Shown here: positions 21,711-49,298 of the stretch, one piece after another | Layout: every line of letters begins with the position of its first letter | Numbering within the stretch: position 1 is the stretch's first letter | The notes under the pieces: generated by a model | Database searches by the model: none | What the model was told of the DNA's origin: nothing | Seen by the model: the letters and a program-made list of their open reading frames with translations, nothing else | Assembly: GCA_944390355.1 (NCBI GenBank) | Contig: CALXPT010000012.1 | Span: 1-49,298, forward strand | DNA length: 49,298 nt | Origin: an uncultured Alphaproteobacteria bacterium | GTDB lineage: Bacteria > Pseudomonadota > Alphaproteobacteria > RF32 > CAG-239 | Direction of reading: 5' to 3' | Made by a program: the position numbers and the translations under genes

Positions 21711-22385
21711 GTAACCCACCGGCTTAGCCGGTGGTTCTTCATAAGCGGGTGTAACCCTAATGGTGCCAGCGAACGCCTAAAGGGCGCATGACGGTCTGAC
21801 GGGGCGAATGTTACTTGCTACCCGTAAACGGGTCAAAATCCATAGTTAATTGACTTTGCTCTGCGTCTTCTTTAAGTTGATTTCGTATATACTCAGTAAT
21901 TTTTTGAGTATTCTTCCCTGTGGTATCAACATAGTACCCTCGACACCAAAATTCCCTGTTGCGATATCGAAATTTTGCATTTCCCCACCGTTCATATATC
22001 GAGAGACTGCTTTTACCTTTGAGATAGCCCATTATTGAGCTTACCGAAAACTTAGGTGGAATCTCCAGTAACATATGAACGTGATCTGTACATACTTCCG
22101 CTTCTATTATTGTTACTCCTTTCCACCGACATAATTCTCTAAGAATTTGTCCTATTTCTAGACGACGTCCTCCGTAAAACGCCTTTCTTCTATACTTCGG
22201 TGCAAATACTACATGGTATTTACAATTCCATGTTGTGTGTGCTATTGTATGTGTGTTCATAAAAAAACTCCTTTGCTTTTTATTAGACAGTTGCCAGACC
22301 GTCACTTTATTTTAGCAAAGGAGTTTTTTATCTGTAAAGCTGTAAGCTCTTTGGAACTACCGGCCTAGCCAGTAGTTTTCTTGTT
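21711..22385 (-). mobile_element. IS200/IS605-family insertion sequence (tnpA only)
   Basis: A single HUH transposase gene is flanked by imperfect palindromes typical of this family: CCACCGGC-GCCGGTGG at 21716-21734 and CTACCGGC-GCCAGTAG at 22358-22376. GACGGTCTG (21790) and CAGACCGTC (22295) form an additional inverted pair just outside the gene. No tnpB is present. GTAAC at 21711 and GTTAC at 22381 mark approximate limits; exact ends need comparison with other copies. It lies immediately downstream of the rpoC terminator T-tract. Confidence 0.8.
21811..22260 (-). CDS. tnpA: IS200/IS605-family transposase TnpA
   Basis: This is the HUH-superfamily Y1 single-strand transposase. The 149-residue protein has WNCKYHVVFAPKYRRKAF near the N terminus, the catalytic HUH motif DHVHMLLEIPP (H60, H62), and RGYYVDTTG followed by the helix with the nucleophilic tyrosine in EYIRNQ (Y124). 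All catalytic residues are intact and the length is normal, so the element may be active. The start is the ATG at 22260 with AAAGGAG upstream; the 15 residues that could be added are not family-like. Confidence 0.93.
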   Translation of the reverse strand: MNTHTIAHTTWNCKYHVVFAPKYRRKAFYGGRRLEIGQILRELCRWKGVTIIEAEVCTDHVHMLLEIPPKFSVSSIMGYLKGKSSLSIYERWGNAKFRYRNREFWCRGYYVDTTGKNTQKITEYIRNQLKEDAEQSQLTMDFDPFTGSK

Positions 22386-44285: not shown

Positions 44286-44289
44286 ATAT

Positions 44290-44577
44290 CGACCTGAACA
44301 AACGGCTCTAGAAAACCATTCCTCCCTTAAAAATCTCGGATAATGGAATTTATAGAGTTGTTTGAAAGGCGAAAGTACGCAGCGTACATAGAAGTACGTG
44401 AGGACACTTTCGACCTGAACAAACGGCTCTAGAAAACCATTCCGCACTTAAAAATCTCGGATAATGGAATTTATAGAGTTGTTTGAAAGGCGAAAGTACC
44501 ACAGCCTACATAGTAGTAGGTGAGGACACTTTCGACCTGAACAAACGGCTCTAGAAAGCCATTAGACGAGATTTTTC
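44290..44577. repeat. Tandem ~121-base repeats forming long rod-like hairpins
   Basis: Two full units start with CGACCTGAACAAACGGCTC at 44290 and 44411, and a third partial unit at 44533; the periods are 121 and 122. Within a unit, short helices nest outward from a small loop: CGTAC/GTACG, CGAAAGT/ACTTTCG, GTTTG/CAAAC, TAGAG/CTCTA and AATGG/CCATT. They are separated by internal loops of two to seven bases. In the second unit the inner helix is CCTAC/GTAGG, a compensatory change, and an outer AAAAATCTCG/CGAGATTTTT helix extends the rod to 44450-44576. A related element is at 49105-49251. Confidence 0.85.
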
Positions 44578-45171
44578 TGGGTTGAGTTTTTCAAACTCCT
44601 CCCCCCTCATCACTAACGACGCATAAACATTGGGCAACTTATCAGGAGTAGAACGCTGAGGAAAATGATCAAACGTCACATGATCCCGATATTGCGGATA
44701 GCCATCGTTTTCAAGTTCGCGCCACCAACAGTCATGAAAAGATTCAAAACCAAAATCATCGGACATAGAGGTAAAAGCGCTAGAAATCAATGTCGCATGA
44801 TATTGAGGATAATGCGTTTTTGCCCATTCTTGGATTAAAAAAATACTTTCGCGCAATCCGGCATCATGAGCGATAGGTTCTAAGAAAGCGATATTGATAA
44901 AAGGCTTGTTAAAATGAAACCTATCAAAAAACTCATCATCAAGAAAAATAGATTCAGCAATCGGGTCATCTCTATGAAGAAGAGCCGCCACAGCAACCGC
45001 ATCATCAAAACACGAGCATTTCAAATCTTTATCAACGAAAAGATATCTTCTGAAATTAGCTTTTTGAGCCTCTGCCGTTTTTTTGGCAAACACCTCTTCT
45101 ACCGCCGCTAAAGCCTGTTCTTTAGATAAGCGATGTAACGTAATAATTTTTTCAAATTCTCTAACACACAT
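44551..45171 (-). CDS. Hypothetical protein whose 3' end lies in the repeat array
   Basis: The 206-residue soluble protein starts at the ATG at 45171 after an AT-rich leader ending TTTATTATG without Shine-Dalgarno; residues that could be added upstream include an unlikely hydrophobic run. It opens MCVREFEKIITLHRLSKEQA and is rich in His, Phe and Asp (CSCFDDAVAVAALLHRDDPI; ESFHDCWWRELENDGYPQYR). The last nine residues (EKSRLMAF and stop) are encoded by the outer arm of the structured repeat, so the reading frame and the repeat overlap. The family is not recognised. Confidence 0.65.
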   Translation of the reverse strand: MCVREFEKIITLHRLSKEQALAAVEEVFAKKTAEAQKANFRRYLFVDKDLKCSCFDDAVAVAALLHRDDPIAESIFLDDEFFDRFHFNKPFINIAFLEPIAHDAGLRESIFLIQEWAKTHYPQYHATLISSAFTSMSDDFGFESFHDCWWRELENDGYPQYRDHVTFDHFPQRSTPDKLPNVYASLVMRGEEFEKLNPEKSRLMAF

Positions 45172-45317
45172 AATAAACAAATTTAATAGATTAATAATAA
45201 GTTTTCTGCCTAGCTGATAGCAGAAATCCCGCATAAAGTCAAGTTCAAAGGAAGACCCCGCCAACAAAACACACAAAAAAATCGCCATGTAGCGTTTCGG
45301 CCGCACAGCGAATAAAA

Positions 45318-45560
45318 TCAATCAATATGCGAAGGAGGGATAATCCGAGGTCTGCTTTCAAACTCTTTAACATAAATTTCATATTTCAATTTATGAAACC
45401 AACCTTCTTCCCATTCCTTAATTTGAGCTTTTACCAGCTCCATATCAGTCATTTTCTTTGCCTTGCGGATAAAATAATATTTTATACACCATACAATCAA
45501 GGCATAGAACACGGCGATAATAAAAACTGCCCAAACAGCAGCAAAAATATAAATCTTCAT
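45318..45560 (-). CDS. Small single-pass membrane protein
   Basis: The 80-residue product has an N-terminal helix at about residues 5-28 (IFAAVWAVFIIAVFYALIVW), then a basic cluster YYFIRKAKK and a charged cytoplasmic-type tail (KAQIKEWEEGWFHKLKYEIY), ending in PRIIPPSHID. No ribosome binding site is seen: the leader is ATAATTTTGTATG. It lies 146 bases upstream of the preceding gene on the same strand. The family is not recognised, and the small size leaves some doubt about coding. Confidence 0.55.
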   Translation of the reverse strand: MKIYIFAAVWAVFIIAVFYALIVWCIKYYFIRKAKKMTDMELVKAQIKEWEEGWFHKLKYEIYVKEFESRPRIIPPSHID

Positions 45561-48939: not shown

Positions 48940-49015
48940 TGGCAGGGGCAGAAGGATTCGAACCCTCGACACTCGGTTTTGGAGACCGATGCTCTACCAA
49001 CTGAGCTATACCCCT
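48940..49015 (-). tRNA. tRNA-Trp (anticodon CCA)
   Basis: The 76-base gene reads AGGGGTATAGCTC at the 5' end, GGTCTCCAAAACC as the anticodon arm (anticodon CCA), GGGTTCGAATCC as the T arm, and ends TGCCCCTG plus encoded CCA. The acceptor stem AGGGGTA/TGCCCCT pairs fully with one G-T. It decodes tryptophan. In many bacteria this gene lies just before secE; here six kilobases separate them. Its 3' end is repeated three times downstream. Confidence 0.97.
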
Positions 49016-49061: not shown

Positions 49062-49104
49062 GAACTTTTTTCAGATTTAAGCAAAAATAAAGATGTGCTG
49101 TTAT

Positions 49105-49251
49105 ACGAGCTTTACAAAAAGGTTGGAGAACGAGGCAAATAATAAGATTTCAGGGGGACGACACCGGAGCGTACAAAGAAGTACGTGAGGATGTCGTCAC
49201 CCCGCAAAATCTGTATTAGTCGCCCGTTATACAAGATAAACAAAAGCTCGT
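49105..49251. repeat. Long rod-like hairpin related to the 44.3 kb array
   Basis: Nested helices CGTAC/GTACG, ACGACA/TGTCGT, GGGG/CCCC, AGATTT/AAATCT and an outermost ACGAGCTTT/AAAGCTCGT are separated by small internal loops. The core AGAAGTACGTGAGGA is shared with the tandem array although the surrounding helices differ in sequence. AAATAATAAGATTT inside the element (49137) is nearly repeated at 49262 (GAATAATAAGATTT), so another unit may continue beyond the window. Confidence 0.75.
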
Positions 49252-49298
49252 TATGTGAGTCGAATAATAAGATTTAAGAAAAATTGTGAAGGAGTGTA

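Follow-up and report, generated by a model that had tools for sequence, protein, structure and literature searches.

An ERIC/RPE1-like family of palindromic repeats with a stop-codon rule in an alphaproteobacterial genome

The right edge of contig C12, whose full length of 49,298 bases is the window analysed here (the genome comprises 1.71 Mb in 42 contigs), carries an array of a palindromic repeat family that is ERIC/RPE1-like and follows a striking stop-codon rule. The units of this family are dispersed, are exchanged as modules, are gained or lost in tandem, and keep a fixed position and orientation. We regard it as likely that the feature at the edge is a unit of a dispersed, non-autonomous mobile repeat, MITE-like and of the RPE1/ERIC type, that settles behind stop codons. 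To settle there without breaking genes is a rule that, to our knowledge, few mobile elements follow.

The edge array and the second array of the window

The features discussed below are the following.

49116..49241, plus strand: unit 1 of the edge array, a 126-nt nested palindrome with left end AAAAAGGTTGGAGAAC, right end GTTATACAAGATAAAC and a degenerate outermost helix; a homologous unit is present in L100
49154..49203, plus strand: inner stem of unit 1 together with its apical hairpin, which holds the core; matched by covariance model R1 with 71.7 bits; this stretch covaries over 42 sequences
49177..49191, plus strand: exact core AGAAGTACGTGAGGA, by sequence match
49092..49113, plus strand: remnant right end of another unit type (GATGTGCTGTTATACGAGCTTT), the same right end as in units in L016, L117 and L013
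49242..49298, plus strand: left part of unit 2, truncated where the contig stops; the remainder is in contig C6, which shares 77 bases with the window end, and after it come unit 3 and the stop codon of a convergent gene
44289..44567, plus strand: second array, comprising two units, whose cores are at 44368-44416 and 44489-44538, and an incomplete third; from folding and R1 matches
44551..45321, minus strand: convergent ORF with its stop codon, TAG, 45 nt from the core and within the right end of the 44.3-kb array
48940..49015, minus strand: tRNA-Trp (CCA), adjoining the edge array but outside the element; the order is identical in L100 and L124

The core AGAAGTACGTGAGGA occurs twice in the window, at 49177-49191 and at 44390-44404, and the arms of the edge unit mostly differ from those of the 44.3-kb array while pairing is retained. 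This confirms the preliminary description, made from the letters of the window, which had seen a second family member at the right edge. The long rod described there is likewise real, in that the stretch 49095-49265 folds with -63.3 kcal/mol (z -7.8), a value reached by none of 200 dinucleotide shuffles; the 44.3-kb array folds with -90.5 (z -7.5). The outermost helix of the rod (approximately 49104-49112 with 49243-49251) is, however, made up of the remnant end of a neighbouring unit and the start of the next one, and so links two neighbouring units rather than closing a single one. Taken alone, unit 49116-49241 gives z -7.6 on the plus and -8.3 on the minus strand; as both strands fold equally well, the energy cannot say which strand matters.

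The left arm of unit 2 (AAAAGCTCG) could pair just as well with the right arm of the same unit (CGAGCTTTT), which lies outside the window. The further unit that had been suspected past the edge is indeed found there: the last 77 bases of the window are the first 77 of C6, and C6 supplies two further units, behind which lies the stop codon of a convergent gene ending in NVNE. Contig C12 ends inside a tandem array. The same holds for the start of C6 and for the starts of C15, C31 and C17, and since contigs break within unit arrays, the arrays probably break the assembly and the copy number is underestimated.

Structure of the unit and its copies

The units, each of about 126 nt, form a rod in which helices are stacked around a constant apical hairpin, and follow a common plan consisting of a stem, a bulged A, a 3x2 internal loop ending NNA/GA, a six-pair stem GCGTAC/GTACGT and a short loop, with the closing G-U pair of the six-pair stem kept almost throughout (41/42 and 42/42). 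In L016 a unit measures 126 nt from TAAAAG to CTTTTA, its ends having been read by eye. In alignment A2 (42 sequences) 85% of the pair cells are standard and both partners vary in 12 of the 16 pairs; covariation reaches a score of 0.384 as compared to 0.141 after shuffling and at most 0.149 with slid partners. Alignment A3, to which further Pseudomonadota were added, behaves similarly (84% standard, 13 of 16 pairs changed on both sides, score 0.399 as compared to 0.140 shuffled and at most 0.235 slid). The number of further pair types is unremarkable, being equalled in 79 (A2) and 359 (A3) of 500 shuffles. An off-centre position of the core (about 55 nt on the left, 70 on the right) was considered as a shared trait and dismissed as an artefact of measuring from the 5' side of a symmetric hairpin.

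Copies of the element are numerous. The core within two mismatches is found at 23 places genome-wide, as compared to 3 for a reversed control pattern, and model R1, built from 42 sequences and comprising 50 ungapped columns, has 43 matches at E <= 0.01 in the own genome, many of them in tandem with a spacing of about 120-130 nt. The genome-wide copies that had been expected are thus there, and of the two observations whose absence had been named as speaking against the family, pairing is present in the C6 units of the continuation and copies elsewhere number 43. When 37 genomes taken as relatives were searched with R1, 23 matched. Copies are present in all 21 genomes of the same family (own included), with 1-49 in each; outside the family they are found in 0/1 genome of another family of the order and in 2/15 genomes from other families of the class.

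Several arrays of the own genome (L012, L013, L015, L016, L017 and L018) contain a repeated module, for example at L015:6055-6492, which lies upstream of the units on the same strand and consists of a strongly folded RNA of approximately 190 nt (z -6.8) and, after it, a gene for an 81-aa HTH protein. The RNA weakly matches sRNA-Xcc1 (RF02221, 35.6 bits as opposed to a cut-off of 53), which is an integron-encoded RNA. Might these then be integron-like cassette arrays, in which the palindromes serve as attC-like sites and HTH gene and structured RNA are the cassettes? Apart from the module itself, the exchange of units at a fixed anchor would suit such an arrangement. However, most clusters have no cassette gene: among 135 related loci, 3 hold the HTH gene and 13 the RNA. 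Moreover, attC sites carry their conserved part basally and their variable part apically, and the units described here are built the other way round. We consider this the most remote of the explanations discussed in this work. Beside the arrays in L012 and L013 there are, in addition, paralogous ORFs of about 300 aa (L012:7367-8278 and L013:6327-7214) with membrane-like stretches (VEYFxRRHMRLFKLKAE), which gave no Pfam match over its cut-off.

Position behind stop codons and turnover between relatives

We defined a boundary as an ORF of at least 100 aa (own ORF calls) starting 35-100 nt to the right of the core. Among 76 distinct boundaries over all loci, 72 are convergent and 4 co-directional, and in 45 of the 76 the stop codon lies 65-73 nt from the core. 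This count excludes the Rickettsia loci together with L077, L118 and L119; a given 60-base gene end was counted once, and cores were required to have at least 60 bases on the left and a 135-nt fold no weaker than -28 kcal/mol. When grouped by protein similarity, the boundaries represent 45 gene families, 41 of them convergent and 4 co-directional only. For comparison, 12,258 noncoding positions drawn at random from these loci yielded 1150 convergent and 1622 co-directional boundaries, with 145 at 65-73 nt. A less filtered count of 84 clusters yields 55 convergent and 4 co-directional cases, 17 in which the gene is far away and 8 at a contig edge. In the own genome, 10 clusters have a gene near their right end (top strand), and in all of them this gene is convergent; the cluster genes include what we take, from their sequences, to be ftsH, PPDK, htpG, fabZ, fliE and infB. 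No insertion within a reading frame was seen for the window units or in these 10 clusters, all of which are at gene ends.

This bears on the tRNA-Trp gene next to the edge array, which had led to the suggestion that the elements are mobile or serve as a landing site. Mobility is likely. A tRNA landing site, by contrast, finds no support and was rejected, because all 10 own-genome clusters with a close right-hand gene sit at the stop codon of a protein gene and the far end of the edge array also abuts a protein stop codon, as elsewhere.

In a set of 79 boundaries, of which 75 are convergent, the stop codons are TAA in 61, TAG in 13 and TGA in a single case, and 18 of the 75 convergent genes end at a stop codon that belongs to the element itself (at 44-45 and 56-57 nt). 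A TA target, as published for ERIC, would fit the use of TAA and TAG and the near absence of TGA, although the ends are only partly TA (right 43/69, left 32/91 of those scored). The trend is weaker among 42 hits from other Pseudomonadota and other phyla, where 13 genes are convergent at 63-91 nt as opposed to 5 co-directional at 60-100 nt and the rest have the gene farther away or none in reach.

Comparison of relatives reveals how the gene ends are occupied. Behind infB, G000 and G017, which belongs to another genus, carry units directly after the stop codon and in the same orientation, and 13 of 15 readable genomes have none (18 were searched, 16 matched and one is cut by a contig end). The infB insertions in the two genera are independent. 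At ftsH, units of varying type and number are present in five of ten readable genomes of the genus (an eleventh is cut); two have other palindromes and three have none. These other palindromes, in L187 (G010) and L186 (G005), lie directly behind ftsH at the same gene end, and that of L187 is possibly a related, diverged hairpin (GTGTACACCAAACAGTACATAAGGAG) on the opposite strand. In the sister genome, where it is represented by L100 (L124 being the corresponding place in G001), the edge locus has two units as compared to three here, beside the same tRNA-Trp. The third unit, missing in the sister, amounts to 128 bp; in G000 a copy of TTATACGAACTTT stands on either side of it, and the sister has a single copy. 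Judged from these sequences, the difference may be either a gain in G000 or a loss in the sister; since the leftover end in the sister resembles the right end of the missing unit, loss is favoured. Unit-by-unit turnover between sister species makes the arrays of these Alphaproteobacteria, presumably a gut lineage of RF32 type, a source of natural filled and empty sites in which the mechanism could be sought.

These comparisons also speak to the view that the element is a conserved structured RNA or bidirectional terminator which regulates gene 3' ends and was spread by ordinary recombination rather than by transposition. The covarying stems and the invariant apical core with its fixed G-U pair would be expected of such an RNA, as would ends formed by an A-run and a T-run and a location immediately after stop codons; judged from gene layout, moreover, the copies often lie in the path of the small HTH gene's transcript. 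Then again, presence and type of the unit vary at the same gene end between sister species, the gene families bearing copies are unrelated, copy numbers range from 49 to 1 within one bacterial family, and a search of Rfam returned no RNA family matching the element. We therefore consider a purely regulatory RNA or terminator unlikely and retain the mobile repeat as the preferred explanation.

Kinship with RPE1 and ERIC and candidate movers

A scan of genome contigs with STACANAGNAGTASGTGAGGA returned 93 stretches, of which 80 could be read for their organisms. Among the matches listed are uncultured Alphaproteobacteria and Rickettsia (tamurae, rhipicephali, MEAM1 and endosymbionts) as well as MAGs called Clostridiales, Thermoanaerobacteraceae, Oligoflexia and Nitrospirota; by our estimate, about 7 exact matches to the 21-base pattern are expected by chance in the 257-Gb collection. 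The same core with covarying stems is found in Rickettsia RPE1, in other Pseudomonadota, and in Oligoflexia, Clostridiales and Nitrospirota MAGs, and nearly all of the 42 re-read hits have the core in the middle of a long palindrome (the exceptions are L226, which does not fold in this way, and L222, L228 and L229, which do so less completely). When 12 such genomes were searched with R1, 11 had 2-58 matches; the L077 genome had none, so that L077 looks like a chance match. Nine of the 12 had contributed a sequence to the R1 training set, whereas the two Nitrospirota genomes had not; one of these has 5 matches (best E 4.4e-6) and the other 7 (best E 7.5e-4). In other phyla the copies come from MAGs, whose contamination could account for single cases. 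A sample of the phylum comprised 200 genomes, namely the own and 199 others; of the latter, 13 match at E <= 1e-4, and three of these have at least 5 copies. Carriage by phages was considered and set aside: a scan of viral contigs with the 21-base pattern gave two stretches whose surroundings lack this palindrome, and both are probably chance matches.

To judge from their sequence, the Rickettsia copies with the same core are RPE1, as translated stretches match TIGR01045 (L050, E 2.5e-21; L051, E 3.7e-22). RPE1 is the textbook case of selfish DNA inside genes. The window family shares with it the apical core GCGTACAnAGAAGTACGTGAGGA, the 3x2 internal loop, the bulged A, the nested palindrome and an abundance of tens of copies per genome. 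RPE1 differs in its length, greater by about 20 nt according to the medians of the folds, in its open frame and in its frequent location within genes, whereas the window units stand behind stop codons in tandem arrays. The translated window stretch 49124-49216 had no TIGR01045 match at E <= 10, under conditions in which L051 served as control.

The second likeness is to ERIC, long used for bacterial typing. A 44-base ERIC core sequence occurs in 5373 of 5426 E. coli genomes. The ERIC next to ybhI measures 127 bp from TATACTC to GAGTATA, as compared to about 126 for the window units; like these it is a nested palindrome, with an apical GGAGC-TTAC-loop-GTAA-GTGA and the same closing G-U and GA/GA loop. 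The stop codon of the convergent ybhI lies 71 nt from the start of the ERIC core (one ERIC locus, two strains). Stem letters differ, however, and the ERIC loop has 4 nt. The hosts differ too, the window family occurring in an alphaproteobacterial family and other phyla as opposed to the Enterobacteriaceae and Vibrionaceae of ERIC. Model R2, built without ERIC, gave the ybhI ERIC the best score among 12 hits over 49 kb of E. coli sequence (16.4 bits, E 0.043), and R1 gave it 11 bits (E 0.23). Anatomy and this weak score suggest kinship of the window family with ERIC.

The literature, as far as the portions available to us extend, treats the two as distinct. In the excerpt of PMC2229807, ERIC, with TA ends and target duplication, and RPE are given as separate elements; PMC10969869, in the part at hand, places ERIC in Enterobacteriaceae and Vibrionaceae and RPE in Rickettsia, and the accessible part of PMC2267715 keeps the ERIC and Rpe families apart. 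Passages of PMC2759123 describe TA ends and TA duplications for ERIC together with its fusion to gene 3' ends, those of PMC5896051 locate QMITE2 mainly in 3' untranslated regions, and those of PMC2635572 count RPE proteins. Within the open-access text portions covered, with subscription journals mostly outside this scope, no work was found that joins ERIC with RPE1.

Could all these elements be of one kind? Tentatively, and with a little less than even confidence, we propose that ERIC, RPE1, the window family and the unnamed palindromes of Clostridiales, Oligoflexia, Nitrospirota and many Pseudomonadota form one ancient superfamily of mobile repeats, with a common apical recognition hairpin, a common stop-codon rule towards convergent genes and a putative common enzyme or host pathway. 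If core and orientation-fixed stop-codon position are shared, one mechanism could be sought for ERIC and RPE1, for neither of which we know of an identified mover.

For the window family, we infer transposition in trans. An enzyme acting in trans or a host machinery would recognise the folded apical core and spread copies, which would insert at A/T-rich or TA-containing sites just behind stop codons. Arrays may then grow and shrink unit by unit, the T-run of one unit and the A-run of the next presumably creating a new target or recombination site. A copy consisting of A-run, hairpin and T-run may be a harmless or even useful end-of-transcript structure for the flanking genes, and this would explain why such insertions persist. 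Among candidate movers, reverse-transcriptase mobilisation was rejected, as no RVT_1 was found in the own genome at the sensitivity of the search; so was IS630, which has a TA target, as DDE_3 was likewise not found in any of the 11 genomes of the genus; and so was IS200, of which the own genome has one copy only.

Modular palindromic repeats in intergenic regions include BOX of Streptococcus pneumoniae, and the window family resembles BOX and REP/BIME in this build and in clustering near gene 3' ends. REPs lie near gene 3' ends according to the excerpt of PMC3733652, and REP/BIME repeats moved by a RAYT, an IS200-like Y1 transposase, would be palindromic and clustered in the same manner; the window moreover contains one Y1 transposase. 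We nevertheless hold this derivation to be very improbable. The window units have 126 nt, as opposed to the 20-40 bp of REPs, which bear a GTAG or CGTC tag, and a different core, the same excerpt of PMC3733652 equates RPE-4 and RPE-6, not RPE-1, with REPs, and no RAYT was seen in the own genome. The partnership with an IS200-type or RAYT transposase that had been envisaged is thus unsupported, the single Y1 copy of the genome lying more than 20 kb from both arrays. This lone IS200-like gene (window 21877-22233, the sole Y1_Tnp of the genome) adjoins an Rfam hit to STnc490, an IS200-type leader, gene and hit together lying at 21877-22377, and we accordingly read it as an ordinary IS200.
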